In this document: piece after piece, positions 25,868 to 52,218 of the stretch
How the letters are laid out: every line of letters begins with the position of its first letter
How positions within the stretch are numbered: position 1 is the first letter of the stretch
Source of the DNA: Maribacter sp.
GTDB taxonomy: Bacteria > Bacteroidota > Bacteroidia > Flavobacteriales > Flavobacteriaceae
Length of the DNA stretch: 64,000 nt
Reading direction: 5' to 3'
Assembly: GCA_020629285.1 (NCBI GenBank)
Contig: JAHDDP010000019.1
Coordinates: 1 to 64,000, forward strand
Notes under the pieces: generated by a model
The model's database searches: none
What the model saw: only the letters and a program-made list of their open reading frames with translations
Told to the model about the DNA's origin: nothing
Made by a program: the position numbers and the translations under genes

Positions 25868-26227
25868 AGGTATTAGTTGTTGTCTTTAAAATTATTTTCT
25901 ATGCTCATAATCGAAAGTACAATTATTAATTCCCTCATCAAGAAAATACATTAAAGATCTTCTTTTATACTTTCCTCTAAAATTCTAGACCACAAAATCT
26001 CTAGTTCTCCAGAGTGTCTTTTTGAAGTATATAATTCATGCACAACAATCCTTTTCTTATTCTTTTGTAAAGAAATATTTCAGAAATCGATGATCATGTT
26101 TAGTAAAAAACAACATTTTTTCATCTCAGTACAGTACAGGATGCTTATTCGGTTAAACTCTTATATACTTGTGATAGGCCATAATTGTTTTTTTAGGGCA
26201 TCATCATAATTCTATAACATATTTCGA
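25868..26227. other. Left PUL border: possible gene remnant and promoter region
   Basis: A 360-base spacer. On the minus strand about 26082-25951 stays open without a start and reads NISLQKNKKRIVVHELYTSK, RHSGELEILWSRILEESIKE, then DL and stop. It has a coding-like composition, perhaps the tail of a lost gene. The right part holds the AGGAT-box promoter of the first PUL operon. Confidence 0.4.
26127..26171 (+). promoter_or_regulatory. AGGAT-box promoter of PUL operon a
   Basis: The box CAGTACAGTACAGGATG (26127-26143) consists of tandem pentamers AGTAC-AGTAC-AGGAT. After 20 bases comes a -7-like TATACTTG (26164-26171), and the start codon at 26228 follows 56 bases later. The same 17 bases occur exactly upstream of the second susC. 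Confidence 0.7.
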
Positions 26228-28150
26228 ATGAAAAGAAAAGAATTCATTGAACTCTCTGCATTTGGCAGCTTAGGGTTAACAATCCCTCTATCTAGCTTAC
26301 TAAATTCCTGTAACAATAAAGTTACCACAGAACCGCATTCACCAGAATTCAAAAAATTAACATTCGATTTATTAAAAGATTGGTGCGATGGCCTAATACA
26401 AACTCAGATATTGGATTCAAAAGATCCAGCTATACAGGGTATGTTTATTTGCCCGGCCTGTAACAAAGTTCATGGTAGAATGATGGATGCTGTCTACCCA
26501 CTTCTTGCAATGGCAAAATACACAGGCGACAAAAAATATCTTCAATCAGGTATTGCTGTAATGGAGTGGGCAAAAAATGTAACATTACCAAGTGGTGGGT
26601 GGTCTAATGATTTGAATCCAAAATCATGGAACGGAATCACGGTTTTTGGAGCCATTTCTCTTGCAGAAGCCTTACATTATCATGGTGATTTATTAGATGA
26701 TAATCGAAGAAAACAATGGACAGATAGATTGGAAAAAGCAACGGATTTCGTATACAAAAAGTTCCCTTCAATCGATGCCACCAATGTAAATTATGGAGCA
26801 ACTACAATTTATGCATTGAACCTAATTGGCAAGATGCTCAATAAACAAGAATACATTACCAGAAGCAAAGAACTTGCGCATGCAATAAAACCCTATTTCA
26901 CAAACCCTAACCACTTTCTATATGGAGAAATAAAGCCAAGTGCCCACAAATTGAGTGCTAAAAAATTACCGGGTATTGATTTAGGCTATAACGTAGAAGA
27001 ATCTTTAAACAATATTGTATTATATGCAGTTCACGAAGACGATCAAGAACTTTTAGAACTTTTAGAAAAATCATTAAGCACGCATTTAGAATTTATGTTA
27101 CCTGACGGTGGATGGGATAATGGCTGGGGAACCCGTATGTTTAAATGGACGTATTGGGGAAGCCGAACTTGTGACGGTAGCCAACCTGCTTTGGTCTTAA
27201 TGGCCGATAGAAACCCTGCATTAGGTACGGCAGCGGTTAAATATACCGAGTTACTAAAAAGATGTACAAATAACGGTTTGTTACATGGTGGCATACACTA
27301 TGTTTCACACGGTATTAAACCTTGTATACACCACACATTTGCTCACACAAAGCCATTGGCCCATTTATTGGATAATTGGGATGAACTCCCAAAGATAGAT
27401 ACTTCAATCCCGTTACCTAGAAGTATAGCCGATGGTGTAAAGCACTATAAAGAAATAGACACCAGTTTGTTTGCTCGTGGAGATTGGAGAGGTACCGTAA
27501 CCGCATATGACGCAATATACAAAGACGGTCATTACCGCCAAGCTACAGGTGGGGCAATGTCCCTATTATACCATAATAAAGTTGGTCTATTATTAGCTGC
27601 AAGTATGGCAGAATACAAACTGGTAGAATCGTTAAATCAACAACCTAACCCAGGTGAAGATTTTCCCTTCACTTCAAGAGTAGAAACCATAGCAAATGGT
27701 CAATTATATTCAAACATTTTTGACCGTTCGGCAATTATTTCTTCTGATGACGCTGATGGAGAAATACGAATAGATGCTCAATGTAAATTAAAGGACCACA
27801 ACAATATTTCTGTAGAAAAAACTGCTTCAGAATTTGATGTCTTATATAAAGTTTCGAAAAACGAGATACGTATTATTGCGAAGACCAATCAAAAAATTAC
27901 TATAGATACGGCTTTCGTTTTACCAATAATATCACCTTCTAATGAAGTTGTCACGCAAGTAAGCAACAATCAAATTACAGTGCGCAAACCAGAGGGTCTT
28001 GTAACTATAACTTCTAGTGTACCTCTTAAAATAAAAAAGACTTCGAAAAAACGAATGTTCAATATGGTCCCAGGGGCAGAAGCAATTCCAATAATGGCAT
28101 ATTTTGATGTAAACTCCAATGAACTAAACATCTCTATACAGATATCATAG
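26228..28150 (+). CDS. Exported (alpha/alpha)-toroid enzyme, probable polysaccharide lyase or hydrolase
   Basis: 640 residues. The N-terminus MKRKEFIELSAFGSLG has a Tat-like KRKEF motif and a later lipobox LNSC, so it is exported. Residues 60-400 contain helical hairpins rich in aromatic and Gly residues (YPLLAMAKYTGDKKYLQSG, LPSGGWSNDL, LPDGGWDNGWGTRMFKWTYW), typical of alpha/alpha toroids of lyases and GH88/105-like enzymes. A Cys pair (FICPACNKVHGRM) may bind metal. The C-terminal part (about 440-640) looks beta-rich, as in toroid-plus-sandwich lyases. As first gene of the operon with two GH78 it probably acts on the rhamnose-containing backbone. I do not recognise the exact family. Confidence 0.6.
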   Translation: MKRKEFIELSAFGSLGLTIPLSSLLNSCNNKVTTEPHSPEFKKLTFDLLKDWCDGLIQTQILDSKDPAIQGMFICPACNKVHGRMMDAVYPLLAMAKYTGDKKYLQSGIAVMEWAKNVTLPSGGWSNDLNPKSWNGITVFGAISLAEALHYHGDLLDDNRRKQWTDRLEKATDFVYKKFPSIDATNVNYGATTIYALNLIGKMLNKQEYITRSKELAHAIKPYFTNPNHFLYGEIKPSAHKLSAKKLPGIDLGYNVEESLNNIVLYAVHEDDQELLELLEKSLSTHLEFMLPDGGWDNGWGTRMFKWTYWGSRTCDGSQPALVLMADRNPALGTAAVKYTELLKRCTNNGLLHGGIHYVSHGIKPCIHHTFAHTKPLAHLLDNWDELPKIDTSIPLPRSIADGVKHYKEIDTSLFARGDWRGTVTAYDAIYKDGHYRQATGGAMSLLYHNKVGLLLAASMAEYKLVESLNQQPNPGEDFPFTSRVETIANGQLYSNIFDRSAIISSDDADGEIRIDAQCKLKDHNNISVEKTASEFDVLYKVSKNEIRIIAKTNQKITIDTAFVLPIISPSNEVVTQVSNNQITVRKPEGLVTITSSVPLKIKKTSKKRMFNMVPGAEAIPIMAYFDVNSNELNISIQIS

Positions 28151-28165
28151 CCGCTAATTCAACCA

Positions 28166-30958
28166 ATGAATACAATTTCACAAAAACTAATATTACCATT
28201 AAGCATATTATTATTTATTTATCTGCCGGTAATTTCCAATTCTCAAAAAGAAGTAAATTTAGTAGCAACAAACTTAACAGTTAGTGAAGGATTTAAAAAT
28301 CCTGTAGGGTTTTATGATGCGTCTCCAACTTTTTCTTGGAAGCTTCCCCCAGAGGTAAAATCACAAACGGCATATTCAATTATTGCGGCAAGTTCACCAA
28401 AGCTGCTCCCTGATAATCCTGATATATGGAAAAGCGAGAAAATCAATTCGGACAAATCTACTTTCGTAGACTATAAAGGTCCTAAATTGGTATCGAGGCA
28501 AAAAGTATATTGGCAAATAAAGTTTTGGGATGAAAAAAACCAACCTTCTAAATGGAGTCTAACGGCAAATTTCGAATTAGGTCTTCTAAAGAATAGTGAT
28601 TGGAAAGCAAAATGGACAGGATTAGATACTGCAAAAGACAGCATTAAAGGAGTACGGAATTTTTTAATGCACAGACCCCAATATTTAAGAAAAAACTTTG
28701 AGCTATCAACAGTTGTTAAATCTGCACGCCTATATATAACGGCCAAAGGTGTTTTTGATGTCTATTTAAATGGAAAAAATGTTAGTAATGATGTGCTTTC
28801 TCCAGGTTGGACACCATACAATAAACGCATAGAAACACTTACTTATGATGTGACCGAACTAGTAACAGCTGGCAAAAACATTCTTGCTGTAGAGTTGGCA
28901 TCTGGATGGCATTCAGGAAGAATTAGCAGAGGCAAGTCAGTATATAATAACTTTGCCTCGCCTAAAATCTTATGTCAGTTAGAAATAACACTAAAAGATG
29001 GTTCTAAAAAAATAATAGTTTCCGATGAATCTTGGAAAGGTACCACAAACGGTCCTAGAAGATTTGCAAGTCTTTATGATGGAGAAGTATATGATGCTAA
29101 TTTAGAAATTAAAGGTTGGACAAAAGCTACTTTTGATGCTTCAACTTGGGAAACTACCCGAAATGCAGCTATTTCAGATAGTGTTAATCTACGACCAAAA
29201 CGTCATGAAACAGTTAAAACAACTGAGGTTTTAGAAGATGTAGAAATTGTATCAACTACAAAATCTTCGGTTGTATTTAATATGAAACAGAATATGCTGG
29301 GCGTTCCAAAAGTAAAAGTACCTATGAAAAAAGGTGATACGCTAACCATACGATTTTCTGAAATGTTGTTATCAGACGGTACATTTTATACAGAAAATTA
29401 CCGTTCTGCCAAATCTACCGACTATTATATCGCGGCAAAAAATGGCGTAATAGAATGGTCTCCAAAATTTACGTTTCATGGATTTCAATTTGTTGAATTA
29501 TCAGGATATGATAAATCTGTAGAACCAACTACAAATTGGATAAAAGGCATGGTACAACATTCAAATATTCAAAAAATTGGTTCATTTACATCTTCACATG
29601 AAAAATTAAACCAACTTCAAAGTAATATTACCTGGGGCTTACGTGATAACCTTTTAGATGTACCTACAGACTGTCCGCAACGTGATGAGCGCTTGGGGTG
29701 GACGGGAGATGCACAGGTAATTTCACCAACTGCTATGTTTAATTTTGACACTCATGCATTTTGGACGGCTTGGTTGCGAAGCATGCGCGAAACACAATCT
29801 GAACATAGTGATGGGTTAGTCCCATTTATTATTCCAGATGTGTTACAAAATAATAAAGCTAGTTCAGGTTGGGGCGATGCAGCTGTTATTATTCCTTGGG
29901 ATATTTATAACATTACAGGCGACAAAAAAGTACTTGAAGAGAATTATGAAATGGCAAAAAAATGGGTAGGGTATTACGAATCTAAATCTCAAAATTTTAT
30001 CCCGACCATACATTCTTTTGCCGACTGGTTACAGCCTTACCCCGAAAAAACAGGAAAAATAGGTAATAGAGGCGATACACCAAGGCTTTTTGTAAACACG
30101 GCATATTTTGCACATTCGTCACATTTAGTTTCTAAAATAGCTAGTGTATTGGGTAAAACTGATGATGAAAAAAAATACAAAGATTTATATAAAAACATTG
30201 CTTCTGCTTTTGAAAATAATTTTTTTGATATCAACGGAAAATTTAAAAATAAAAAGCAAACTCAAACTAGTTATTTACTCGCTATCTATTTTGATTTATT
30301 AAAACCCGAAACGAAAATAAAAGCGCAACAGCATTTATTGCAAGAAATCAAAAAAGCAGACTACCATTTAGGTACCGGTTTTTTAGGTACTCCTATTTTA
30401 CCCAAAGTTTTAGATAATATGGGCGAAATAGATTTAATGTATAAAATCCTTTTCAAGGAAACGTATCCGTCTTGGTTATATTCTATAAATCAAGGAGCAA
30501 CAACTATGTGGGAACGTTGGAATAGTTTTAGCAAAGAAGATGGTTATAATCCGCAAAGTATGAATAGTCTTAACCATTATGCATACGGGGCTGTTGGGCA
30601 ATGGATGTATGAACGAATTGCCGGTCTTTCATCTTTAGAACCTGGCTATAAAAAAATAAAAATTGCACCAATACCCAATACCCAGTTTATAAATATGGCT
30701 TCTGCCAGTTTAGATACGCCTTATGGCAAAGCCTCTTCTTCATGGAAGATAGTAAATAACAATTTCTATCTTAATACAGTTATACCTGCAAATACAACGG
30801 CAGAGATACATATTCCATATAATACTATAGATAGTCTATTAGAAAACGGAAATACGTTCAAAGAAAATTCAAACTTGAAAATAATAAACATAGAAAAGAA
30901 TGCTATTAAGATTATGGCTCAGCCAGGCAGCTATAATTTTCATACCAAAACTCAATAA
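28166..30958 (+). CDS. GH78 alpha-L-rhamnosidase (copy 1, soluble periplasmic)
   Basis: Releases alpha-linked L-rhamnose from the non-reducing end by inversion. 930 residues with a classical signal peptide without lipobox Cys. Domains: Fn3/rhamnosidase N-terminal (40-150), a beta domain (170-330), a concanavalin-like part (350-470), and an (alpha/alpha)6 catalytic barrel. The catalytic motif TDCPQRDERLGWTGDAQ lies at about 497-513, with the acid and accessory Asp residues. The general base is in MWERWNSF (about 781). A C-terminal beta domain ends the protein. It is followed after 1 base by a close paralogue. Confidence 0.95.
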   Translation: MNTISQKLILPLSILLFIYLPVISNSQKEVNLVATNLTVSEGFKNPVGFYDASPTFSWKLPPEVKSQTAYSIIAASSPKLLPDNPDIWKSEKINSDKSTFVDYKGPKLVSRQKVYWQIKFWDEKNQPSKWSLTANFELGLLKNSDWKAKWTGLDTAKDSIKGVRNFLMHRPQYLRKNFELSTVVKSARLYITAKGVFDVYLNGKNVSNDVLSPGWTPYNKRIETLTYDVTELVTAGKNILAVELASGWHSGRISRGKSVYNNFASPKILCQLEITLKDGSKKIIVSDESWKGTTNGPRRFASLYDGEVYDANLEIKGWTKATFDASTWETTRNAAISDSVNLRPKRHETVKTTEVLEDVEIVSTTKSSVVFNMKQNMLGVPKVKVPMKKGDTLTIRFSEMLLSDGTFYTENYRSAKSTDYYIAAKNGVIEWSPKFTFHGFQFVELSGYDKSVEPTTNWIKGMVQHSNIQKIGSFTSSHEKLNQLQSNITWGLRDNLLDVPTDCPQRDERLGWTGDAQVISPTAMFNFDTHAFWTAWLRSMRETQSEHSDGLVPFIIPDVLQNNKASSGWGDAAVIIPWDIYNITGDKKVLEENYEMAKKWVGYYESKSQNFIPTIHSFADWLQPYPEKTGKIGNRGDTPRLFVNTAYFAHSSHLVSKIASVLGKTDDEKKYKDLYKNIASAFENNFFDINGKFKNKKQTQTSYLLAIYFDLLKPETKIKAQQHLLQEIKKADYHLGTGFLGTPILPKVLDNMGEIDLMYKILFKETYPSWLYSINQGATTMWERWNSFSKEDGYNPQSMNSLNHYAYGAVGQWMYERIAGLSSLEPGYKKIKIAPIPNTQFINMASASLDTPYGKASSSWKIVNNNFYLNTVIPANTTAEIHIPYNTIDSLLENGNTFKENSNLKIINIEKNAIKIMAQPGSYNFHTKTQ

Positions 30959-30959
30959 A

Positions 30960-33746
30960 ATGATGCCAAAAACAACAAATTTTTTACTGAGAACAATAAT
31001 TGGCATCACTATTCTAAGCCAATTATCTTGTAATCATAAAAAAACATTAGCAGCCGCTAAGGAATTAAATGTTTCTGAAGGGTTTAAGAATCCAATTGGA
31101 TTTTATGATCACGAACCAACTTTTTCTTGGAAACTCCCCATTAAATCAACTGTCACTGCCCAATCCGCTTATCAAATAGTTGTTGCAACCAATCAAGATT
31201 TATTGCCGGACCAACCTGATTTATGGGACTCAAAAAAGCAAAACACAGACCAATCTACTTGGGTAAAATACAAAGGGTCTACATTAAAATCCCGCCAAAA
31301 AGTATACTGGCAAATAAGATATTGGGATCAGAATGGCGAAGCTTCAGAATGGAGTACTTTACAAAACTTCGAATTAGGATTACTTAAAAACAGTGATTGG
31401 AAAGCAAAATGGGTAGGTCTTAACACTGCAAAAGACAGTATTCGTGGTCGCAGTAACATACTTATTCATAAACCACAATATCTAAGAAAAGAATTTAAGC
31501 TGTCCAAAACAATTTCTTCTGCCAGGCTATACATTACAGCTAAAGGTGTGTTTGATGTTTCTATAAACGGCAAAAACGTAAGCAATGATGTAATGTCGCC
31601 AGGGTTTACTTCCTATGATAAAAGAATTGAAACTTTAACCTATGACGTTACCGATTTAATCAAATCTGATCAAAATACTATTGGTGTTGAATTAGCATCT
31701 GGCTGGTATTCCGGAAGGTTACTTTGGGGAAAAACACCATGGGACAATACTATTTCACCAAAAATATTATGCCAATTAGAAATACACATGAAAGATGGCT
31801 CTAAAGAAATTATTACTTCAGATGATAGTTGGAAAGGAACTACCAACGGACCCATCCAATTTTCCGAAATTTATGATGGTGAAATTTACAATGCCGCTTT
31901 AGAAATGCCCAAATGGTCTACCACTGAATTTGATGATCATAAATGGCATAATGTAGAAACCACCAATCTCGACGATCACATTGCTTTAACACCAAAAAGG
32001 CACACAACGGTAAAAGCAAAAATAGAGCTGAACCCGAAACAAATAACAAAAATTGATAATACCGTAATCTTCGATCTAAAGCAGAATATGGTAGGGGTAC
32101 CTAAAGTTAAAGTCCCGATGAAGAAGGGAGATACCTTAAAAATTAGGTTCGCAGAGATGTTATCACCAGACGGGTCTTTTTATACCAAAAATTACCGATC
32201 GGCGAAATCTACCGATTATTATATTGCCGCTAAAGATGGTAATATAGTATATACGCCAAAATTTACATTCCACGGTTTCAGATATATTGAATTAAGCGGT
32301 TTCGATACTACTAAAGAGCCTACAAATGATTGGGTAACTGGTATTGTACAGTATTCAGATTTTAATAACAACGGTACGTTTACATCTTCAAATGACAAAT
32401 TGAACCAACTACAAAGTAATATTGTCTGGGGCTTAAGAGGAAATTTCTTTGATATACCCACAGATTGCCCACAGCGTGATGAACGTTTAGGGTGGACAGG
32501 TGATGCACAGGTTTTTGGACCAACATCTATGTTCAATGCAGATGTGTATAAATTTTGGGCAAGTTGGTTACAAAGTGTCAAAGAAGCTCAATTTGAAAAT
32601 GGAGGTATTCCATGGACGGTGCCAGATGCACGTGGCAACAAAATAGGCAGTTCTGGTTGGGGCGATGTTTGTACCATCATTCCTTGGAAAATTTATTTGC
32701 GCACAGGTGACAAGAGTATATTGGAAGATAATTTTGAAATGATGCAAGAATGGGTAACATATCATAAACTGAAATCGAAAGACAATATTTCCAATATGAT
32801 GTCTTTTTCAGATTGGTTACAGCCCTACCCAGAAAATGGAGACAATAGAGGAGACACTTCACTTCATCTTATTGGCACTGCATTTTATGCCCATTCGGCA
32901 AAACTTACTTCGCAAAGTGCTGCCGTATTGGGGAGAGTTGAAGAACAAAAAAAATATGAAGAGATATTTAAAACAGTATCCAAATCTTTTGAAGATACCT
33001 TTTTTGACGAAAGCGGCAAAATTAAGGGCGTATCGTCTACACAAACTTCTTATTTGTTGGCCTTGGCTTTTGATTTGCTATCCGAAAACAAAAAAATAAA
33101 TGCCAAAAAGCATTTAATGGAAGAAATCTCTAAAGCTGATGACCATTTACGCACAGGATTTCTAGGCACCCCATTATTATCTGAAGTTTTAGATAAAACC
33201 GGCGAAACAGATAAGATGTATAAATTGTTGTTCAATGAAACATATCCGTCATGGTTTTACTCTATTAATCAAGGTGCTACCACTATTTGGGAACGTTGGA
33301 ACAGCTATAGCAAAGAAGAAGGTTTCAACCCACAGAATATGAACAGTTTAAACCACTACGCGTACGGCGCCATTGGTGAATGGATGTATGAAAGAATCGC
33401 TGGCATATCACCATTGAAAGCTGGTTATAAAGTCATTAAAATAGCACCTGTACCTAATACTCATTACCTAACAAATGCTTCCGCTTCTTTACAAACTCCA
33501 TTTGGTACGGTATCAAATTCGTGGAAAATTTCCAATGATCAATTTAAAATGGAAACACAAATACCACCAAACACTACAGCTAAAATTATCATTCCTAAAA
33601 TAGGCACTGAAGAACTAATAGTAAATGAACAAGAACTAACAGCAATTAAAGAAATCAAATTATTGAGCACTAGTGATGATTTTATAGAAATAATGGTTCA
33701 ACCCGGCACATACAACTTTGTAACACCTTATAATCATGACAAATGA
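30960..33746 (+). CDS. GH78 alpha-L-rhamnosidase (copy 2, lipoprotein)
   Basis: 928 residues and clearly similar to the preceding gene along its whole length (shared LYITAKGVFDV, VSNDV, FYT.NYRSAKSTDYYIAAK and GATT.WERWNS), hence a tandem duplicate. The start is ATG 30960, because a reading from 30900 lies inside the first gene. Here the signal peptide ends in a lipobox (QLSC), so this copy is membrane-anchored. The catalytic motif TDCPQRDERLGWTGDAQ is at about 497 and IWERWNSY at about 776. The next gene overlaps by 4 bases. Confidence 0.95.
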   Translation: MMPKTTNFLLRTIIGITILSQLSCNHKKTLAAAKELNVSEGFKNPIGFYDHEPTFSWKLPIKSTVTAQSAYQIVVATNQDLLPDQPDLWDSKKQNTDQSTWVKYKGSTLKSRQKVYWQIRYWDQNGEASEWSTLQNFELGLLKNSDWKAKWVGLNTAKDSIRGRSNILIHKPQYLRKEFKLSKTISSARLYITAKGVFDVSINGKNVSNDVMSPGFTSYDKRIETLTYDVTDLIKSDQNTIGVELASGWYSGRLLWGKTPWDNTISPKILCQLEIHMKDGSKEIITSDDSWKGTTNGPIQFSEIYDGEIYNAALEMPKWSTTEFDDHKWHNVETTNLDDHIALTPKRHTTVKAKIELNPKQITKIDNTVIFDLKQNMVGVPKVKVPMKKGDTLKIRFAEMLSPDGSFYTKNYRSAKSTDYYIAAKDGNIVYTPKFTFHGFRYIELSGFDTTKEPTNDWVTGIVQYSDFNNNGTFTSSNDKLNQLQSNIVWGLRGNFFDIPTDCPQRDERLGWTGDAQVFGPTSMFNADVYKFWASWLQSVKEAQFENGGIPWTVPDARGNKIGSSGWGDVCTIIPWKIYLRTGDKSILEDNFEMMQEWVTYHKLKSKDNISNMMSFSDWLQPYPENGDNRGDTSLHLIGTAFYAHSAKLTSQSAAVLGRVEEQKKYEEIFKTVSKSFEDTFFDESGKIKGVSSTQTSYLLALAFDLLSENKKINAKKHLMEEISKADDHLRTGFLGTPLLSEVLDKTGETDKMYKLLFNETYPSWFYSINQGATTIWERWNSYSKEEGFNPQNMNSLNHYAYGAIGEWMYERIAGISPLKAGYKVIKIAPVPNTHYLTNASASLQTPFGTVSNSWKISNDQFKMETQIPPNTTAKIIIPKIGTEELIVNEQELTAIKEIKLLSTSDDFIEIMVQPGTYNFVTPYNHDK

Positions 33747-35263: not shown

Positions 35264-35286
35264 TCAGTTTTTACAAAAGTTATTCA

Positions 35287-35320
35287 AGACCCCTTTAATT
35301 TTTAAAGGGGTTTTATTTTT
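35287..35320 (+). terminator. Intrinsic terminator of operon a
   Basis: Arms ACCCCTTTAA (35289-35298) and its complement at 35302-35311, then a T-rich run. The remaining spacer to susC (378 bases in all) contains only the AGGAT-box promoter. Confidence 0.85.
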
Positions 35321-35556
35321 CCCATTAATTTCAATAGTCTAGAATGCTTAATGTTTTATCTGAATCTGTAAACCAATCAAGCTCATTTTTTCCACTATCC
35401 GCATACAGCAAGAATTATCATTTTTAAATTCTAAAGCCCATTTAATAATCAATTTAAAAATTAAAATGACATATTTTATGAATTTAATTTTTTATTAAGA
35501 AAACCCGTAAACATTCTATAAATCCGCTATTTCACTATAAAAATAGTTCACCACTA

Positions 35557-35600
35557 CAGTACAGTACAGGATGATTAAAAAAAACCTTAACGATAGTTTA
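35557..35600 (+). promoter_or_regulatory. AGGAT-box promoter of second susC
   Basis: Exact second copy of CAGTACAGTACAGGATG (35557-35573). After 19 bases there is a -7-like TAGTTTAA (35593-35600), then 41 bases to the ATG. Confidence 0.7.
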
Positions 35601-35641
35601 ACATAATCAAAATGAAATTTTCAACTTTATGAGACAATTCT

Positions 35642-38600
35642 ATGAAAACTAAACTAACACTATTTAAAATTAAAACTAAGGTATTTACTGTACTGTTTGC
35701 CTTAGTTACATTATCATCATGGTCTCAACAAACCGTGAGTGGTAACGTATCGGACGAAGAAGGACCTTTACCTGGAGCATCGGTAATTGTTCAAGGAACA
35801 ACTAGAGGTACTACTACCGATTTTGATGGTAATTTTACCATTGAAGCAAACACTGAAGACGCACTACAGGTTTCTTACATTGGTTATGAACCACAAAGTG
35901 TTGTCATTGGCGACCAAACTCAATTAAATATAATTCTTAAAGCAGGCAATAAGCTTGACGAAGTTGTTGTAATTGGTTATGGTACTACTAAAAAATCAGA
36001 TTTAACGGGTTCTGTAGCGTCTGTGAGTTCTGAAGAAATCACACAAGTACCCTCAGCAAGGGTAGATCAGGTTTTACAAGGTAGGGCTGCAGGAGTTCAA
36101 GTAACACAAACAAGTGGGGCACCTGGTGCTGGAACCGCTATTCGTGTAAGAGGTGGTAACTCTATTACCGGTAGTAATGAACCATTATGGGTAATTGACG
36201 GCATTGTTGTTGGTACAAATTTCAACCTGAATAATATTAACGCAAGCGATATTAAATCTATTGAAATTCTTAAAGATGCTTCATCTATTGCCATATATGG
36301 CTCTAGGGGTGCCAACGGGGTAGTTCTGGTAACAACTAAAAATGGTTTAGGCGTAGGTACTGGAAAACCTGAAATTAGCGTAAATGTTTTTACAAGTATG
36401 CAAATGCTACCTGAATTACCAGACTTACTAAGTCAAGAAGAACAAATTGCATTTACAAACGAAAGTGCCGATTTTAGAAACGTATCTGCACCTTTTCCAA
36501 ATGATCCATCTACCTACCCAAATAATGATTGGATAGATTTAACAACAGGTCCTGCACCAATTTATAATGCAGATATAAGCCTATCAGGTTCTTCTGAAAA
36601 TGTAAACTATTATAATTCAATCAATTACTTTAATCAAGAAGGTATCGTAAAAAGCACCGGTATCGAAAAATTCATATTTAGGTCAAATTTAGATTTAAAA
36701 TTAAGTGATAAAGTAAAGGCAGGCTTTCGTATCAATTATTCTAGAATTAAAAATGAAAATGGCCTAACCTCCTTTGGCGGTAATGCTTTTGGAACCTTAC
36801 GCACACAACCTGTATTTAATGATGACGGCACATTTAATGGTTTTGACGATGTCATAGGGGCACCATTTAACAATCCGCTGGCAAATTTTGCACTGAACAC
36901 TAATGAAACGTTTACCAATAATCTATTGGCAACTGCTTATTTAGAGTATCGTCCAGCTCCTGGTTGGTTTATACGTTCTACATTCAGTCCAGAATTCAAC
37001 AATACTAAACGAAACCGTTTTAATTCAAGTCAATCTCCAGGTAACCTTGCTATAGGGGTGCAAGATGGTGGTACCGCTAGTGTACGTACTCTAGCAAGTA
37101 CAGGTTGGAACAACGAAAATACGGTACAGTATACTACAGATTTTGGCGAAAACCATAGTTTAACAGTACTAGGCGGTGCATCATTTCAAAAAGTAGAAAC
37201 TGAAATAACAGAATCCGAGGCAGCAGGTATCACTAGTGATGCAACAGGTTTTAATAATTTAGGAAACTCTGACCCTATCAGAGCTATTGTAAGCAGTGAT
37301 TATAATGGGTTTCAAATTGCTTCATTTTTTGGAAGGATAAATTATGACTATAAAGACAAATATCTCTTAACATTGGTAGGTAGATCAGATGGTAGTTCTG
37401 TATTTGCCCCGGGTAACAAGTATGAATTTTATCCTTCAATAGCCGGTGCCTGGAAAATCAGTGAAGAAGAATTCATGCAAGACCAGACTTTGTTCAAAGA
37501 TTTAAAATTCAGAGCTAGTTGGGGTCGTTCAGGTAATCAGGCGATTGGTCCATATAGAACATTGGGTGTACTTACTGAGGCTAACACAACCTTGAATGGA
37601 TCAGAGGTTCCTGGCTTAACATTAGGAAGACCTGCAAATCCAAATCTACAATGGGAAACCACAACTTCTTTAGATATCGCTCTAGAAGCATCAATGTTCA
37701 ATGGTAGACTTTTTGCGGAGTTTAACTACTACCAAAAAGAAACTAATGATTTACTTTTAGATGTTACCATACCAAGACAAACAGGTTTCACAAGTCAACT
37801 ACAAAATGTAGGTTCACTTTCAAACAAGGGTTGGGAACTTTTATTAACATCTACCAACATATCCAAAACAGATTTTAGCTGGAATTCTTCAGTAGCCTTA
37901 TCTTCTAACGACAACGAGATTTTAGATTTAGGGGGACAAGAGTTTATAGATGTTGTCGTAGATCCTATTATTGGTTCTGGAAACACAAGACTTATCGTAG
38001 GTGAGTCGGTTCCAGTATACACAGGTCTAAACTACTTAGGTACTTGGAAGAGCCAAGAAGAAATTGATGCATCTGGCAGAACCGACCCACAAGTTGTTGG
38101 TGGATCACACTTTGAGGATATTAATGGTGATGGCATTGCATCTACAGAGGACAATGTTATCTTAGGTAGCCCAATTCCCGATTTAATTTTTGGTATTGAA
38201 AACTCTATTTCTTATAAGAATTTAGACTTTTCATTTTTCTTTCAAGGCACTATAGGTAATGAGGTGTATAACCTAAGAATGCGTAATCATTATTTCAACA
38301 GAGGTGAGACAGTAAAATTTGGCGACTTACGAGACCGTTGGACCGTAAACAACCCAACCTCAGATATTCCCAGAGCAGGAGCCGATACGGTGACCAATAC
38401 ACCGAGTAATTCCCAATATGTAGAAGATGGTTCTCACCTGCGTTTGAAGACAGTAAGATTGGCATATAATTTCCCTACTGATAAAATAGGACTTGACGGC
38501 CTTAAAAAAGCTACCATTTATTTATCGGGAGCTAACTTATTGTTGTTCTCTAAAACTAGACTGATCGAACCAGAGGCCAGTAATTTTGGTAGAACTGGCT

Positions 38601-38693: not shown

Positions 38694-40262
38694 ATGAAAA
38701 CAAAGAACATTTTTTTATACATCTTCATTATATTCTCCGCCATTGGATGTGAGAAGTTTTTAGAAGAAGATCCAAGAGCCATTGTGGCTCCCGAAACCTT
38801 TTTTGCATCTGAAAGTGATGCAAGACAAGCTATTAATGGAACCTATGCCATATTAAAAAACAATTCTATCTATGGTCAAGTAGGCCTAGATCATTTTTAT
38901 GATAATGGTGCTGATATTATCGAACCTAATCGTGCTGCAAATTTTGTAGAACCGATTGGTAATTATTCAATGAACGAGGCTCTTGCAGATGTATCGGTCC
39001 AAAAAATGAGTGTTTCAGATACATGGAAAGACCTTTATAAAGTTATATTCAATACAAACATAATTATAGATAGGGTACAAGACAATGAGGGTATTTTAGA
39101 AGGCTCACGAACAGAAATTATCGCAGAGGCCCGTTTTTTAAGAGCACTATGCTATTGGCACATTACCAATCTTTGGGGAGATGCCCCATATTACAATGAA
39201 GTACTTACATTAGAAGAAGTAAGTTCATTACCAAGAACAGATGAGTCCACTATTATCGCTGGAGTAATAGATGATTTACAATTTGCCCAGTCTATTTTAC
39301 CTTCTACGTACCCAGATGATCAAAGAGGCCGTGCCACGAAATGGGTAGCTGCCATTATTGAGGCTAAAATTTATATGAAGCAACAAGAGTGGACAGTTGG
39401 TTTAGGTAAATGTCTGGAAATTATAGATGAATCTCCACATGCACTATTACCAACCTATAATGAGGTTTTTGATCCAGCTAATGAATATAACCCAGAAATT
39501 ATTTGGTCTTTAGATTTCGCTAGGGATATCGAAGGAATTTTCGACCCTGCCTTTCCGGGTAGATCATTTGCCGGTAACAACAGCTGGAGACCAAGCATGT
39601 TCAACCCTCGCTTAAGAGATGAGCCTAAAAATGCAGATGAAAGATCTGCTTTAAGAGATGCCCTTTCAGAAAGAGGCGAAGCATTTAATGGTACAGGCTT
39701 ACAAGTTGCTTCTAAAGATTTTGCTGAAAAATTTCCATTAAATGATTTAAGAAGAGAATTGAACATTGTAGATAATTATTTAGGTTTCGAATTAAATTTC
39801 CCATACATGGCTAAATTCTGGAATTTAGATTTAGAAAGCTCTCCTCGTTTCAATCACTCGGACAATAGAATGGTTTTTCGTTTAGCAGATGTCTATTTAA
39901 TGGCGGCAGAATGTGAAAACGAGGCTAATGGTCCTGGTAATGCTTATCAATATATTGAGCCAATTAGAAAGCGTGCTTTTGAAACTGAAGAAGAATGGAA
40001 ACTAGAAGGTCTTACCCAACAAGGCTTTAGAGAGGCTATCTATGATGAACGAAAGTGGGAGCTTGCAGGCGAAGCACATAGAAGATATGACCTAATACGT
40101 TGGGGTATCTTAATAGATGTTGTTACAAACTTAGAATATCGTTTTTGGGAACCGAATTTAAATATTAGACCATGGCATGTTAAACTTCCTATTCCGCTAC
40201 AAGAACTGGAACAAAATCCTGTCTTATTAGAATCTGACCCTACAAATAATGGGTATAGATAA
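38694..40262 (+). CDS. SusD/RagB family glycan-binding lipoprotein (PUL)
   Basis: 522 residues with lipobox AIGC (about Cys18), then KFLEEDPRAIVAPETFFAS, the classical SusD start. An RFLRALCYWHITNLWGDAPY segment and the C-terminal ERKWELAGEAHRRYDLIRWG are RagB/SusD hallmarks. It forms the lid of the SusC transporter and binds the polysaccharide at the cell surface. It is followed by a strong hairpin before the GH5-like gene. Confidence 0.95.
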   Translation: MKTKNIFLYIFIIFSAIGCEKFLEEDPRAIVAPETFFASESDARQAINGTYAILKNNSIYGQVGLDHFYDNGADIIEPNRAANFVEPIGNYSMNEALADVSVQKMSVSDTWKDLYKVIFNTNIIIDRVQDNEGILEGSRTEIIAEARFLRALCYWHITNLWGDAPYYNEVLTLEEVSSLPRTDESTIIAGVIDDLQFAQSILPSTYPDDQRGRATKWVAAIIEAKIYMKQQEWTVGLGKCLEIIDESPHALLPTYNEVFDPANEYNPEIIWSLDFARDIEGIFDPAFPGRSFAGNNSWRPSMFNPRLRDEPKNADERSALRDALSERGEAFNGTGLQVASKDFAEKFPLNDLRRELNIVDNYLGFELNFPYMAKFWNLDLESSPRFNHSDNRMVFRLADVYLMAAECENEANGPGNAYQYIEPIRKRAFETEEEWKLEGLTQQGFREAIYDERKWELAGEAHRRYDLIRWGILIDVVTNLEYRFWEPNLNIRPWHVKLPIPLQELEQNPVLLESDPTNNGYR

Positions 40263-40330: not shown

Positions 40331-40367
40331 AGAGTGGGACAAAACATGTTTTTGTCCCACTCTCTTT
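40331..40367 (+). terminator. Strong hairpin after susD (terminator or attenuator)
   Basis: Perfect 15-base stem (arms 40331-40345 and 40349-40363, AGAGTGGGACAAAAA-like) with a tiny loop and a short T-run. It separates susD from the GH5-like gene, which has no AGGAT box of its own. Partial read-through would set a lower level of the enzyme than of SusCD. Confidence 0.85.
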
Positions 40368-40434
40368 TTACCATGTATCATTAAATACAGAAACTCAAAC
40401 AATGTGTCACTTCCAACTTTTAAAAAATTATATC

Positions 40435-41844: not shown

Positions 41845-41863
41845 AAACAAGTATAATGTACTC

Positions 41864-41905
41864 TCAATTCAAAAATCATAATATTATCTATAATCTTTGA
41901 ATTGA
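41864..41905. terminator. Inverted repeat between convergent genes
   Basis: Arms TCAATTCAAA (41864-41873) and the complement at 41896-41905, separated by 22 AT-rich bases. It lies between the GH5-like gene and the convergent sulfatase, without a clean T-run, so termination is only likely. Confidence 0.4.
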
Positions 41906-41933
41906 AGGCACTACGAAAATATCAAATAATAAA

Positions 41934-43682: not shown

Positions 43683-43935
43683 AATTTAATGTTTGAGTAT
43701 ATGGTATAAGCTAAAATTAGTCTTCTCCAAAAGAATAACCATACTGGTGTGTAGGCTATAAAACCAATAAACATAATTCCATTATTTTTAAACAAACATT
43801 TAAATTACATTACCCTTAACATGTTCAGGACAGCACAGGATGGATACTATGACCTTGAAACTTAAGTTTGGTAATGCGGTCCAAAAAAAAGACCGAACAA
43901 CAAATCAACAAAAACAATAAAACTAAAATCAACGT
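43683..43935. promoter_or_regulatory. Divergent promoter region between two sulfatase genes
   Basis: A 253-base spacer, very AT-rich. One AGGAT box faces right (43826-43842). No matching box in the opposite orientation is seen, so the leftward sulfatase may be controlled by the same bound protein or separately. Confidence 0.5.
43826..43870 (+). promoter_or_regulatory. AGGAT-box promoter of the sulfatase-GH78 fusion
   Basis: CAGGACAGCACAGGATG (43826-43842), 15 of 17 bases as in the susC copy, with pentamers AGGAC-AGCAC-AGGAT. After 20 bases there is a perfect -7 TAAGTTTG (43863-43870), fitting TAnnTTTG. The ATG follows 65 bases later. Confidence 0.72.
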
Positions 43936-46900
43936 ATGCTTAAGATAATAAGACGTTTAGCTGTATTCTTATTTTGTTTAATAGGAAGCTTATCATATGG
44001 TCAAAACAAAGAACAAAAAAGCGCGAAACCTAATATCATATTCATTTTAACAGATGACCAGAGATTTGATGCTATAGGTTATGCTGGAAATAAATTTGTA
44101 GAAACTCCAGAAATGGATGCTTTGGCAAAAGCTGGTACTTATTTTAATAAAGCAATTGTTACCACGCCCATTTGTGCAGCTAGTAGAGCTAGTATTATAA
44201 CCGGTCTACATGAGAGAGCACATAATTTCAATTTTCAAACCGGTAATGTTCGCGAAGAGTATATGGAAAACTCCTATCCTACGCTATTAAAAAACAACGG
44301 TTATTACACAGGTTTTTACGGGAAGTACGGTGTTAGATACGATGATTTAGAGAAGCAATTCGACGAATTTGAATCTTATGATAGAAACAACCGATATAAA
44401 GATCGAAGAGGATATTATTACAAGACAATTGATAATGATACTGTTCATTTAACTAGATATACAGGGCAAAAAGCCTTAGATTTCATTGACAGTAACGCAT
44501 CTGGCAATGAGCCGTTTTGCCTATCCTTAAGCTTTAGCGCTCCTCATGCTCATGATCCCGCGGAGGATCAATACTTTTGGCAGAATAGTACAAATAGTTT
44601 ATTGACTAATATTACCATACCCGAACCTGCCCTATCAGATGATAAATATTTTAATGCGCAACCTGAAATAGTTAGACAAGGCTTTAATAGATTGCGCTGG
44701 ACATGGAGATATGACACCCCAGAAAAATATCAACATAGCTTAAAAGGCTATTACAGAATGATTTCCGGAATTGACTTAGAGATTAAGCAAATTAGAAAAA
44801 GACTGAAGGAGAAAGGCATTGAAGACAACACGGTCATAATAGTTATGGGCGATAATGGCTACTTTTTAGGTGAGCGCCAACTTGCCGGAAAATGGTTAAT
44901 GTATGATAATTCTATACGTGTACCATTGATAATTTTTGACCCACGAGTAAACAAACATCAAGATATTAATGACATGGTTCTAAATATAGATGTTACTTCT
45001 ACAATTGCAGATCTGGCTAATGTAGAAATACCTAACACATGGCAAGGAAAAAGTCTTATGCCACTTGTAAATCAAGAAAAAAAATCCATAGACAGAGATA
45101 CCGTTTTAATAGAACATATTTGGGATTTTGAAAGCATTGCCCCCAGTGAAGGTGTGCGTACCAACGAATGGAAATATTTTAGATACGTAAATGACAAAAC
45201 AATAGAAGAATTATACAACCTTAAAAAAGACCCTCTAGAAATCAACAACTTAATCGGTAAGAAAAAATATGTTGAAACGGCAAACAAGTTACGATCTAAA
45301 CTAGATGAACTTATAAAAAAGAATAGTAACGAATATAGAGCTGCCCCTACAGATTTAACGGTTGAATTGATCAGGGCACCAGAAACAGAGGTTGAAATTT
45401 TTGACCTACAACCAGAATTTGGTTGGACGGTACCTTCGGCATCCAAATTTCAATCGGCATATCAAATTTTAGTAGCTAGCGATAAGTCAACAATCGATGC
45501 CAATAATGGAAATGTTTGGGATAGCCAACGAGTAGCTTCTAATCTATCAACAAATGTAGAATATAAAGGTAAGCCCTTAGAAACAGGAAAAACGTATTAT
45601 TGGAAAGTAAGAATTTGGGATGAAGATAATCGCTTGGTAGATTATTCTGAAATGCAAAAATTTACTACAGGGCAAAGTGATAGTTATATTATCTCTACCG
45701 AAAACAAATTTGTGACAACAAAGGTAGATCCGGTTGTATTCGAAAAAAGAGGTGATGTGTATTTTATGGATTTTGGTAAAGCAGCCTTCGCAACTATCGA
45801 TTTTAACTATAATGCGAAGAAACCACACACCTTGACATTTAGAATTGGTGAAATGGTAGATGAAGAAGGCAATGTCAATAGAACCCCTCCAGCGAAAAGT
45901 AATATTCGCTATCAAGAGATTCAAGTTGATGTAAAACCAGGACAAAAAAAATATCAGATCGAAGTACAAAAAAATGAAAGAAATACTAGACCTAACCAAG
46001 CTGTAGCATTACCTAAAGGGTTCCCCCCACTTCTTCCATTTAGATATGCCGAGGTAGAAGGAGCTCAAGAAACAGTTTCTAAAGAAGACTTTCAGCAATT
46101 AGCATTTCATACCTATTGGGATGAAGAAGCAAGTAGTTTTGAGAGTGATGACGACATACTTAATCAAGTTTGGGATTTATGTAAGTACTCTATAAAAGCA
46201 ACCACATTTAATGGACTTTATGTGGATGGAGATAGAGAAAGAATACCTTATGAAGCAGATGCTTACCTGAATCAGCTAAGTCATTATACCACTGATCGTG
46301 AATTCGCTATGGCAAGACGTACTATAGAGTATTTCATGAAAAACCCAACATGGCCAACAGAATGGCAACAACATGTAGCTCTTTTAATTTATGCGGATTA
46401 TATGTATACCGGCAACACTGAGTTAATTGAGAGATATTATGATGCACTTAAACATAAATCATTATTTGAACTTTCTAATGAAGACGGTCTAATAACTTCA
46501 ACGAAAGTTGATAAAGAATTTATGCGAAAATTGGGCTTTCCTGACGGATATAAAAAACCATTAACGGATATTGTTGATTGGCCTCCTGCGAATTTCAATG
46601 GTAGTAAAACGGCCGGTGAACTTGACGGTTTTGAATTTATGCCATACAGTACCGTAATTAATTCGTTTTTTTATGAGAACATGAAGATTATGGCCGAGTT
46701 TGCAAAAATCCTCGGAAAAACCCAAGAAGTATTAGACTTTGAACTAAGAGCTGCAAAAGCCAAGAAAGCGGTTAACGAACAAATGTTCGATAAAGAGAGA
46801 GGAATTTATGTAGACGGTATTGGCTCAAAACATGCATCTTTACACGCTAATATGATGCCATTGGCATTTGGTTTGGTGCCAGAAGAGCACTACCAAACTG

Positions 46901-47466
46901 TTGTTGACTATGTTAAGTCTAGAGGTTTAGCATGTAGTGTTTATGGGGCGCAATTTTTAATGGACGGACTCTATAATGCCGGAGAACAAGATTATGCCTT
47001 AGACTTACTGACAGATACCAGTGATAGAAGTTGGTACAACATGATTAAAATTGGCTCTACAATCACATTAGAAGCATGGGATAATAAATATAAAAATAAC
47101 CTTGACTGGAATCATGCTTGGGGTGCAGTGCCTGCCAATGTAATACCAAGAGGACTTTGGGGCATTAAACCTAAAACACCTGGTTTTGGCATTGCCACTA
47201 TTAAACCTCAAATGAGCACATTGAAATCAAGCTCCATTGAAGTACCAACGGTAAGAGGTACTATTAAGGGGGAATATAAATACAATGGCCCTAGGCTTCA
47301 AACCTACGAAATAGAAATACCGGCAAATATGGTAGCCGAATTTAGCTTGAATAACTTAGATGGTAAAGATTTTATCCATAACGGCGAAAAGGTACCATCT
47401 GCATTTGAAAGTATTCGACTTTCACCTGGTAAACACACCATTCAATTAAAAATCAATTCTTTTTAA
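43936..47466 (+). CDS. Bifunctional sulfatase/GH78 alpha-L-rhamnosidase
   Basis: 1176 residues with an N-terminal signal peptide ending SYGQ. Residues 30-465: S1 sulfatase with [12 protein letters not shown], formylglycine motif C80-A-A-S-R and [14 protein letters not shown]. Residues about 470-1176: GH78 with an N-terminal Fn3-like part ([20 protein letters not shown]), a catalytic barrel with [19 protein letters not shown] (about 761) and the base in TLEAWDNKY (about 1046). This subgroup lacks the CPQ of the stand-alone copies. It would desulfate and release a sulfated rhamnose in one protein. A similar fusion is known from the ulvan PUL of Formosa agariphila (my recollection). Confidence 0.93.
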
Positions 47467-47520
47467 ACACTAAACATTAACTATAATTGACATCAAAAAT
47501 TACATTTTTTAAATTTTTAA

Positions 47521-47554
47521 TAATGAGGTTTTTTAAACTTAAAAAATCTCATTA
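47521..47554 (+). terminator. Terminator after the fusion gene
   Basis: A 14-base stem (arms 47521-47534 and 47541-47554, one G-T pair) around a 6-base loop, AT-rich and without a long T tail. Confidence 0.65.
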
Positions 47555-47580
47555 TTAGCTTGTTTACTAAAGTTTAATTT

Positions 47581-47743
47581 ATGAGTTCATTTCACCACGT
47601 ATTTAAGGTCAAAGACATTCAATCAACAAGAGAGTTCTATGTTAATTTTCTTAGCGCTAAAGAAGGTAGATCTACTGAAACGTGAATTAATTTTAATTTT
47701 TTTTGACAATCAATTGTCTGCCCACGTGATAATCTCAAGTTAA
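47581..47743 (+). pseudogene. VOC/glyoxalase family gene remnant
   Basis: An ATG frame reads MSSFHHVFKVKDIQSTREFY, then VNFLSAKEGRSTET, then a TGA where Trp is expected. INFNFF follows, and a run of eight T shifts the frame, after which [12 protein letters not shown] and a stop appear. FHHVFKVKDI..TREFY and EGRSTETWINFNFFDNQLSAHV are the typical first half of a VOC (glyoxalase/bleomycin-resistance) protein of about 140 residues. So this is a dead gene with a nonsense mutation, a frameshift and a lost 3' half. Confidence 0.75.
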
Positions 47744-47762
47744 CGCAAAAAAACTAGACTAT

Positions 47763-49244
47763 ATGAATTTACGAAACAACCCGTCATCTTTACATGCAAA
47801 AATCGGGTATGTACTACTTTGCTTTTTGCTCGGTTATTCCTGTAAACCGGTACAAAAACAAGAAACAGTAACGAAGGTTAAACAAAAACCCAATATCCTT
47901 TTTATTGCAGTGGATGATTTGCGACCAGAGCTGAATTTTTATGGTGCAGCACATATCAGTTCCCCAAATCTGGATGCATTGGCCGCGGAGAGTTTGGTCT
48001 TTGACAGAGCCTATTGCAGCGTTCCTACCTGCGGTGCCTCTAGGGCTAGTATTCTAACAGGAACACGCCCAACACGTTATAGATTTTTGACCCACGACGT
48101 AAAAGTGGACGAAGAAATTCCCGAAGCGGTTACCCTACCAGAACTGTTTAAGGCCAACGGATATACTACCATTTCCAACGGAAAAGTGCTGCATCATAAA
48201 AACGATAGAAAAAAAGCTTGGGACGAAATATGGCGACCTGAAAATGCAACTACTAAGTATTTAACCAAGGAAAATAAAAGCTTAATCGCAGTACCCAATC
48301 AAAGAGGAAACCCTTTTGAAAGTTCTACAACGAATGAAAGTGAATATTTAGACGGTCAGATTGCTACTAAGGGTATCGCCGACCTTAAAAAACTTAAAGC
48401 ATCTGGTAAACCCTTTTTCTTGGCTATGGGTTTTATGAAACCCCACCTACCCTTTAATGCACCACAGAAATATTGGGATACCTATCCTATCGAAAACATT
48501 CACCTACCCGAAAGCTATCAACAACCAAAAACGACACCCTCCAAAGCATTTCATGGTTTTGGAGAACTTCGTAGTTATCACGGAGTGCCAAAGAAAGGTC
48601 CGGTAACAGATGATATGGCCAAAAAGCTCATTCAAGGCTACTATGCCTGCGTGAGTTTTGTAGATGCCCAAATAGGTAAGGTATTGCAGGAACTGGAAGA
48701 CTCGGGATTGGCAGAAAATACCATTGTTGTACTTTGGGGAGATCATGGTTGGAATTTAGGCGAACACCAACTATGGTGCAAGCATTGTACGTTTGAGACC
48801 TCTTTACATAGTCCGTTGGTGATAAAAGTACCCGGTAAAACCAAAGGAAACCATGTTTCCAATATTACAGAGTTTATTGATGTCTATCCAAGTTTGGCAG
48901 AACTAGCTGGTTTAGAAGTTCCAGAAAACCAATTGGAAGGAGAAAGTTTTGTGTCGCTCATTAACAATACACCCGAAAAACGGCAAAAGAATTACGCGAT
49001 ATCTAAATTTAAGGATGCGGTTACCTTAATACAAGGGAACTATTTTTATACCGAATGGACCGACCACAAAGGAACCGCCTATGCCAGAATGCTATTTGAC
49101 CACAGTAGCGACCCCTTGGAACTGGATAATCTAGCTGAGAAAGCAACCCACCAAGATATCGTAAAGGAAATGGCAAAAGTACTTCGTGAAAAATGGGGTG
49201 CTAGTTTTCTTGTGAACACTATTGCAACTACTGAGGCAGAATAG
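47763..49244 (+). CDS. S1 family sulfatase, iduronate-2-sulfatase-like lipoprotein
   Basis: 493 residues with lipobox GYSC (Cys27). The metal site is VDDLRPEL and the formylglycine motif C90-G-A-S-R is followed by ASILTGTRP. Also [19 protein letters not shown], which is typical of iduronate-2-sulfatase-like S1_7, and [18 protein letters not shown]. Codons look more G/C-ending than in the neighbouring PUL genes, and no AGGAT box precedes it. Together with the gene remnant upstream this suggests later insertion. Ends at a bidirectional terminator. Confidence 0.92.
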
Positions 49245-49282
49245 CTAAACAACAAATTAATATAGTAAGGAATTGATCGAAT

Positions 49283-49322
49283 AAAAAAATCCCCGAGTTA
49301 AAAAACTCGGGGATTTTTTTTA
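49283..49322. terminator. Bidirectional intrinsic terminator
   Basis: Perfect 16-base arms AAAAAATCCCCGAGTT (49284-49299) and the complement (49304-49319), flanked by A-run and T-run. It serves both the sulfatase at left and the convergent oxidoreductase gene at right. Confidence 0.95.
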
Positions 49323-49327
49323 TTTCG

Positions 49328-52037: not shown

Positions 52038-52073
52038 TCTAATTTAGGTTTAAAATATAATTTACTTAGTGCT

Positions 52074-52116
52074 TAAAGTTAGCTCAAATACGCTCAGAAC
52101 TATCCTGTGCTTACAT
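52074..52116 (-). promoter_or_regulatory. AGGAT-box promoter of the DUF1080-oxidoreductase operon
   Basis: On the minus strand the box reads ATGTA-AGCAC-AGGAT (52116-52102). After 20 bases (counting from the end of AGGAT) there is a -7-like TAACTTTA (52081-52074), and the ATG at 52037 follows. Divergent from the next promoter. Confidence 0.6.
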
Positions 52117-52174
52117 GCATATATCTACCCTATTATGATAGAATTCGCAATATCACTCCCTTAAAATTACAAGC

Positions 52175-52218
52175 CTAACACTACAGGATAGCATAAAGAT
52201 GTCAAAACCTTAAATTGC
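52175..52218 (+). promoter_or_regulatory. AGGAT-box promoter of the seven-gene operon
   Basis: Pentamers CTAAC-ACTAC-AGGAT (52175-52189), then a weak -7-like TAAATTGC (52211-52218) 21 bases after AGGAT, 20 bases before the ATG at 52239. The least conserved of the five boxes. Confidence 0.5.

Follow-up and report, generated by a model that had tools for sequence, protein, structure and literature searches.

In a 64,000-nucleotide stretch of a Maribacter sp. genome (GenBank assembly GCA_020629285.1, contig JAHDDP010000019.1, positions 1 to 64,000; hereafter the window), five transcription units of a polysaccharide utilization locus (PUL) are preceded by the same composite promoter element, an operator followed at a set distance by a -7 box. 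We propose, with a probability of roughly 0.72, that a GntR regulator from this genome's L-rhamnose locus binds this element and activates rhamnose and ulvan genes in response to a rhamnose-type signal. Within this proposal, the identity of the binding protein appears almost certain, a rhamnose-type signal is likely, and activation is the probable mode of action. Comparison among genomes appears to support the sites, their fixed geometry, their link to GntR and the covariation between operator and regulator, each of which we describe below.

A shared element with fixed promoter geometry

The operator CAGTACAGTACAGGATG occurs as exact copies at 26127 and 35557 and with two mismatches at 43826. 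Matches to this consensus with at most three mismatches number 3 in the window against 0.12 expected, a count that none of 100 shuffles reached; the bare core CAGGATG is not enriched (4 observed, 3.98 expected). We trained a weight matrix, with 18 operator columns set at a fixed distance from 8 columns for the -7 box, solely on sites in other organisms (98 in all). Its five highest-scoring distinct positions in the window were the same five that the first-pass annotation had picked out, and each scored above 14.5, the maximum over 60 first-order Markov shuffles of the window. We thus regard the shared element as real, although its weakest member, on the minus strand at 52117, lies close to the null maximum (16.3). 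The next match, at 35552 with a score of 14.1, is the 35557 site in a register shifted by 5 bp. The orphan susC at 7743 and the sulfatase at 47763, which the annotation had described as lacking the element, have no position scoring 7 or more around them, whereas its count of five units proved incomplete: the matrix detects a sixth unit on the same contig (our C64) at 64456, 456 bp beyond the window end, ahead of a GH106 gene.

The first unit (gene 26228, then two GH78 genes and a sulfatase) carries its operator on the plus strand at 26127..26143 (score 34.7) and the box TATACTTG at 26164..26171, 21 bp after GGAT. The second (susC at 35642, susD at 38694 and a GH5-like gene at 40402) has the operator at 35557..35573 (plus strand, 30.7) and the box TAGTTTAA at 35594..35601, and the third, a sulfatase-GH78 fusion gene, is preceded by the window's best-scoring operator, CAGGACAGCACAGGATG (43826..43842, plus strand, 36.1), and the box TAAGTTTG at 43863..43870. 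The remaining two units diverge: CATGTAAGCACAGGAT (52102..52117, minus strand) and the -7-like box TAACTTTA (52081-52074, minus strand) precede genes for a 3-keto-disaccharide hydrolase and Gfo/Idh/MocA proteins running from 52037 down to 49328, while CCTAACACTACAGGATA (52174..52190, plus strand, 21.3) and the box TAAATTGC (52211..52218) precede the run from 52239 to 63130. A TAnnTTTG-like box had been proposed for all five and is found at sites generally, but it is degenerate in the second and fifth units. The proposed spacing of 19-20 bases did not hold; the distance from the GGAT end to the box is 21 bp at four sites and one base less at the minus-strand site.

Across the whole genome the bare composite pattern with at most three mismatches is as frequent as its reversed control (27 against 28), and only the stronger sites therefore stand out from background. 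The generic pattern CAnnnCAnnnCAGGAT gives 8 genome matches, 4 of them on C64 and 1 on contig C108, against 1 for the reversed control. Three-mismatch matches at C97:52064 and on C107 and C109, the three rescored off C64 and C108, have no matrix score of 9 or more in their surroundings. A composite pattern in the annotation's style, ACAGGAT-N18-22-TAnnTTTG, matched the genome twice; one match falls within the GH78 gene at 28166, and we took it as chance.

The distance between operator and box is nearly invariant beyond the window. We compared 105 sites, counting identical 90-base site windows once; some of the 105 overlap each other as shifted registers. In 82 of them a TAnnTTTG box matching 5 or more of 6 positions lies exactly 21 bp after GGAT, and any other offset from 10 to 44 accounts for at most 4; neither the box nor operator columns 17-18 played a part in choosing these sites. 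CAGGAT[AG][CG] occupies the place of the -33 element, with no TTG-type -33 box. Class II activators bind sites centred near -41.5 that overlap the -35 region. Since the flavobacterial -7 box is described as spanning -12 to -5 (PMC9723704), a box 21 bp after GGAT places the 16-mer at -49 to -34, with its centre at -41.5, the class II position as predicted from the -7 box rather than counted from mapped starts. An operator centred there would leave no room for a TTG-type -33 box, and the earlier suggestion of an activator-type element in the -33 place fits this geometry. The sites also behave as promoter sites: only 3 of the 105 lie inside open reading frames (ORFs) of 120 amino acids or more, and the first gene downstream is rhaEW in 38, susC in 18, a sulfatase in 6 and another reference gene in 7, so the motif does not turn out to be equally frequent outside promoters or ahead of unrelated genes. 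A further 28 sites have a downstream gene outside the reference set and 8 have no ORF within 350 bp; six of these 28 genes are look-alikes by their first residues, and the two that were tested are RhaT, the rhamnose symporter (PF06379, above the Pfam cut-off).

This geometry bears on two alternatives. The chief rival is repression by the same GntR through the same operator: a protein bound at -49 to -34 would block RNA polymerase until rhamnose released it. Many GntR regulators repress, the operator overlaps the -33 region, and a galactose paralogue described below shows looser spacing; however, a fixed 21-bp spacing would be needless for repression, and with CAGGAT[AG][CG] in its place no TTG-type -33 box would be there to work after release. 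We consider repression possible but unlikely. The second alternative, that the element is a promoter for an extracytoplasmic function (ECF) sigma factor, could appeal to the frequency of such factors beside SusCD genes. Against it, the downstream box is the primary-sigma TAnnTTTG, and presumed flavobacterial ECF promoters carry a CGT box (PMC9723704), making this reading highly improbable. An RNA element was also considered and rejected, as the repeat sits upstream of the predicted transcription start. In five loci (L094, L098, L111, L150 and L162) arrays of extra repeats continue in 10-bp phase (e.g., L111 13123-13158), which suggests cooperative binding of several subunits.

A candidate GntR regulator in the rhamnose locus

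The first-pass annotation had found no regulator gene in the PUL and had postulated a master regulator encoded elsewhere. This fits what we find: no regulator domain, hybrid two-component and AraC types included, was detected in the 18 scanned PUL proteins of the window (26228-63130) or in 2 scanned genes beyond, and a candidate is present on contig C108. Of the genome's three exact motif copies, two lie in the PUL and one lies before the susC of the rhamnose locus on C108, and the genome's only one-mismatch copy precedes rhaEW on that contig. These two C108 copies flank, one on each side, a gene for a chimera of GntR and LacI types (C108:31907-32953, minus strand), the only ORF found between them. 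Its product has an N-terminal winged helix-turn-helix (PF00392, E 6.9e-13, 48.5 bits against a cut-off of 27) and a C-terminal Peripla_BP_3 domain (PF13377, 27.0 bits against 26.5). An AlphaFold2 model built with 30 sequences (mean pLDDT 90.8, pTM 0.73) matched, in all 50 Foldseek matches listed, proteins titled as LacI-type transcription regulators or ribose-binding proteins, and the Pfam scan showed no aminotransferase-like domain of the kind found in the MocR subfamily; the sensor domain thus appears, on the model, to be of the LacI/periplasmic-binding type.

The sites on C108 are placed as expected for a rhamnose regulon. On one side of the GntR gene a site precedes susC/susD; on the other, a site precedes rhaEW (above the curated NCBIfam cut-off of TIGR02632), and behind rhaEW come a rhamnose-isomerase-like gene, genes for an FGGY kinase and an FMN-dependent dehydrogenase (LldD), and a gene of 470 amino acids that no family model supports as a transporter. 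The prominence of rhaEW among genes downstream of the 105 sites, with RhaT after two sites in relatives, agrees with this placement. Two further C108 sites precede a GMC oxidoreductase gene and a run comprising a mannonate-oxidoreductase-like (uxuB-like) gene, uxuA, kduI and a gluconate-5-dehydrogenase-like gene, with kduI, uxuA and the mannonate-oxidoreductase model above cut-off; targets of the uxuA/kduI type fit the uronates released from ulvan. A contig of Maribacter huludaoensis encodes a GntR protein identical to that on C108 in flanking DNA that is 78-88% identical, and the two contigs share 96-100% DNA identity over GntR and both operators (L086 ~9500-11400) against a background of about 80-91%, a sharp island that looks as if regulator and operators had recently been exchanged as a unit. 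The viral contigs searched contain no relative of this GntR.

Genome comparison ties the motif to this regulator. Among 249 genomes of the family, GntR was scored as present at a match better than 1e-90, a threshold placed, once the values were known, in a gap that the best matches per genome leave between 4e-121 and 6e-87. Motif sites with at most two mismatches number 144 in the 54 genomes with GntR and 32 in the 195 without, against reversed-control counts of 10 and 33, and thus the motif exceeds background only where this GntR is encoded; at least three sites occur in 25 of the 54 genomes and in none of the 195. Of eight genomes with rhaI that lack this GntR, five have no site and three have one or two, while both genomes that have GntR without rhaI carry sites (2 and 5), and the motif therefore seems to track GntR rather than rhamnose isomerase. 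Closer to the gene, 65 of 80 named loci around GntR relatives, none of which was dropped before counting, have a site agreeing at 13 or more of 16 positions. Matches at 14 or more positions number 76 in these loci, where the reversed control has none, and those at exactly 13 number 56 against 11. Loci named Lewinella, Pseudochryseolinea and Flammeovirgaceae carry the operator as well as many Flavobacteriaceae. Chance likeness or a general promoter feature would agree with the parity of the bare pattern and its genome-wide control and with the 11 control matches near GntR genes, but not with matrix scores above all 60 shuffles or with 76 matches against none; this reading is scarcely credible as a whole and, judged by these counts, already refuted for the strong sites, the minus-strand site at 52117 excepted.

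Two side observations concern the same loci. In two Zobellia-like loci (L202 and L203), rhaEW, the kinase, LldD and GntR are kept, and no rhamnose isomerase was found in these genomes at E <= 1e-80; the first step of rhamnose breakdown may use another enzyme there. In five genomes (G044, G070, G132, G153 and G163) two closely related GntR genes adjoin, and heterodimers or divided sugar specificity are possible.

The operator also changes with the protein. A covariation scan that left operator positions 14-16 free found G at position 14 in 73 of 74 matches near regulators with glutamate at residue 58 (90 loci, 16 without a match) and A in all 7 matches near those with valine (8 loci, 1 without a match). 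Where T[VI]V[RK]AY replaces TVEKAY in the recognition helix, CAGAAY-like hexamers occupy both operator halves, and four relatives with a TAEKGY helix have CATRAY in both. Because both operator kinds occur near rhaEW or rhaI within one bacterial family, the operator letters appear to follow the GntR recognition helix, in three classes, and not lineage. A class-wide search for alternative helices matched 16 of 395 genomes. Four have the valine-58 helix, three of them with CRGAAY operators (L209, L210, L213) and one with none in the examined flank (L208); six have DTAEKGY, four with CATRAY repeats (L212, L216, L220, L221) and two with none (L214, L219); and six have other helices, with no acceptable operator. 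Among the seven operator-bearing loci, rhaEW lies in the examined flank of L210, L212, L213, L216 and L220 but not of L209 or L221.

These results also bear on whether another activator, of AraC, hybrid two-component or SusR-like type, reads the motif while GntR is merely co-inherited. Such types are the usual PUL regulators in Bacteroides, whose RhaR is of AraC type (PMC3878776), and AraC-type rhamnose motifs are direct repeats (PMC3870299). Yet GntR is the sole ORF found between the two C108 sites, and the operator letters shift with its recognition helix across three classes; we judge another activator very unlikely, and return to GntR as the putative binding protein.

Operator symmetry and related regulators

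The annotation had read the operator as three tandem pentamers. Comparison across regulators favours instead a direct repeat of hexamers at a 10-bp period, which reads best because in the valine-58 and TAEKGY classes both operator halves change in the same sense. The class consensi fit such a repeat at 4, 6 and 5 of 6 columns, with sites chosen by pattern and so leaning towards a direct repeat. The window's own operator class, taken alone, also fits an inverted reading around position 7 at 5 of 6 pairs, and the symmetry claim thus appears to depend on the other classes, which are few and partly pattern-chosen. A motif-agnostic grid of periods and offsets showed period 10 clearly in the galactose class introduced below, with 19 of 30 loci at offset 22 and 16 at 21. 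Period 10 showed for the rhamnose class too, many of whose 80 loci are closely related Flavobacterium; 24 fell at offset 21 and 24 at 22, but also 22 at 14. The grid was without a peak at 21 for valine-58 (2 of 8 loci) and split for TAEKGY (4 of 6 loci at 21, 4 also at 30), and offset 21 therefore rests on the class-specific alignments and not on the grid.

A GntR paralogue of about 38% identity adjoins galactose genes (loci L224-L261; in L224 the neighbours galE, galT, galK and galM each score above the cut-off of at least one model) and has its own 10-bp direct repeat, CTRGTA-GGTA-CTRGTA, ahead of a -7 box. Direct repeats like CTGGTAGGTACTGGTA occur in 26 of 30 galactose loci at 12 or more of 16 positions, against 3 in the reversed control; a near-palindromic reading also suits some of these operators. 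No offset from 12 to 33, other than the three at which its box chiefly lies (given below), holds the box in more than 2 of 30 sites. The architecture of operator and -7 box accordingly seems general, with looser spacing in the galactose class. Two more GntR paralogues in the genome (C91:22868-23830 and C39:72278-73216, loci L262 and L263), 33 and 31% identical, adjoin TonB-receptor/SusC-like genes; no similar operator was accepted at either locus, L262 giving one weak unrelated match.

We see about an even chance that Bacteroidota hold a subfamily of GntR/LacI chimeras, covering rhamnose, galactose and other sugars, that would act as class II-type activators in place of the -33 element. Their operators would be head-to-tail hexamer repeats with a 10-bp period some 21 bp before the -7 box, itself unusual in this phylum, with a few recognition-helix residues (57-60) setting the hexamer (CAG[TG]A/CAGGA, CAGAA, CATRA or CTRGTA).

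A probable ulvan locus and its proposed switch

The genes under the element are very probably an ulvan locus. Pfam assigns two GH78 alpha-L-rhamnosidases (28166..33746, plus strand) and a sulfatase to the unit after 26127, susC/susD and a GH5-like gene to that after 35557, a sulfatase-alpha-L-rhamnosidase (GH78) fusion (43936..47466, plus strand) to that after 43826, and a long run with sulfatases and GH106 to that after 52174, which also encodes a GH115_C-domain protein, ThuA and a putative PL40-like ulvan lyase (55300..57792, plus strand). For this lyase the sole PDB sequence match at E <= 0.01 is Uly1040 (9vtk, E 7e-91), described as a PL40 ulvan lyase (PMC12915356). The fusion has the domain layout of P36, an established ulvan enzyme of Formosa agariphila, to which we liken it by layout and not by sequence (PMC8511951). 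Because of the lyase match and this layout, and with a predicted ulvan lyase standing together with sulfatases and rhamnosidases (GH78 and GH106), ulvan is the probable substrate. The head of the first unit (26228-28150) encodes a 640-amino-acid protein that matches neither a Pfam family nor any PDB sequence and may be a new enzyme acting on ulvan.

In the mechanism we favour, the GntR/LacI chimera of the L-rhamnose locus would sense rhamnose or a rhamnose-derived signal, and two of its subunits would presumably bind head to tail on the hexamer repeat centred at -41.5. The bound protein would substitute for the absent -33 box, bringing RNA polymerase to the TAnnTTTG -7 box. Rhamnose catabolism, a SusCD pair, the uronate genes (uxuB-like, uxuA, kduI and neighbours) and six ulvan PUL units on another contig would then be switched on jointly.

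Several observations weigh against this mechanism or parts of it, among them the parity of the bare genome-wide pattern with its control and the two degenerate -7 boxes in the window. For most GntR proteins the operator is an inverted repeat, and many of the family are repressors. This general picture is in part that of PMC5320631. The galactose paralogue keeps its box less strictly, at 20, 21 and 22 bp in 5, 5 and 8 of 30 sites. Seven of the 54 GntR genomes have no site with at most two mismatches, and no match lies near the gene in 12 of 86 loci with the [VI]EKAY helix or in any of the 4 glutamate-58 loci with other helices. At one TAEKGY locus, L212, a GGAT-type match turned up alongside a CATGAT repeat. 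The valine-58 regulators may form one clade, in which case the covariation would represent few independent events. On C108 the isomerase, kinase and LldD fall below NCBIfam cut-offs and are named by best match, the 470-amino-acid gene after lldD matches no family model, and a gene LacI-like by appearance lies about 24 kb away (6499-7521). Contig C64 ends at 71,567, and a regulator past its end remains conceivable.

Known systems resemble the proposed one in part. AraR of Bacillus subtilis joins a GntR DNA-binding domain to a LacI-type sensor, a two-domain chimera like the C108 protein, but it represses at palindromic operators, unlike the probable direct repeat beside a -7 box here; the arabinose-repressor DNA-binding domain 4egy is among the PDB matches of our GntR. 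AusR of Zobellia is likewise a GntR regulator over algal-glycan genes in a flavobacterium, those for alginate, but a repressor, and the likeness is one of general description rather than of operator. The MocR regulators GabR, TauR and PdxR combine a GntR winged helix with direct-repeat operators and activation, often divergently from their targets, but differ in having an aminotransferase-type sensor where ours is of LacI/periplasmic-binding type and its operator has a 10-bp period (PMC5320631). Closest among predicted precedents is ManR (BT2103) of Bacteroides thetaiotaomicron, a GntR monosaccharide regulator that is predicted to control mannose catabolism together with an alpha-mannosidase/SusCD operon (PMC3878776); its sugar is mannose, not rhamnose, and we liken it by description, not by operator or protein sequence. 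Bacteroides RhaR and the other rhamnose regulators in PMC3870299 also govern rhamnose catabolism, and their motifs are direct repeats, but they belong to the AraC family and have 21-bp periodicity in contrast to 10 bp; a search of that regulon survey's main text for GntR gave no match. As the annotation had supposed, the motif seems undescribed: we found none like it in one open-access library, regulon databases such as RegPrecise and paper supplements lying outside the search.

What is understood of PUL regulation comes mostly from systems encoded next to the PUL, of hybrid two-component, SusR-like and ECF type. In this Maribacter, an entire ulvan PUL appears to be under the control of a monosaccharide sensor encoded far away in a catabolic locus, and the end product would thus act as the signal for the polysaccharide. 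As the operator can be recognised by sequence in many genomes, the rhamnose/ulvan regulon would become predictable from genomes. The system offers a GntR operator of apparently unusual symmetry and a case in which to test how this phylum may activate promoters that lack a -33 element. If the proposed subfamily of chimeras is real, it would supply a code, legible in regulator and operator sequences, by which sugars could be assigned to PULs.

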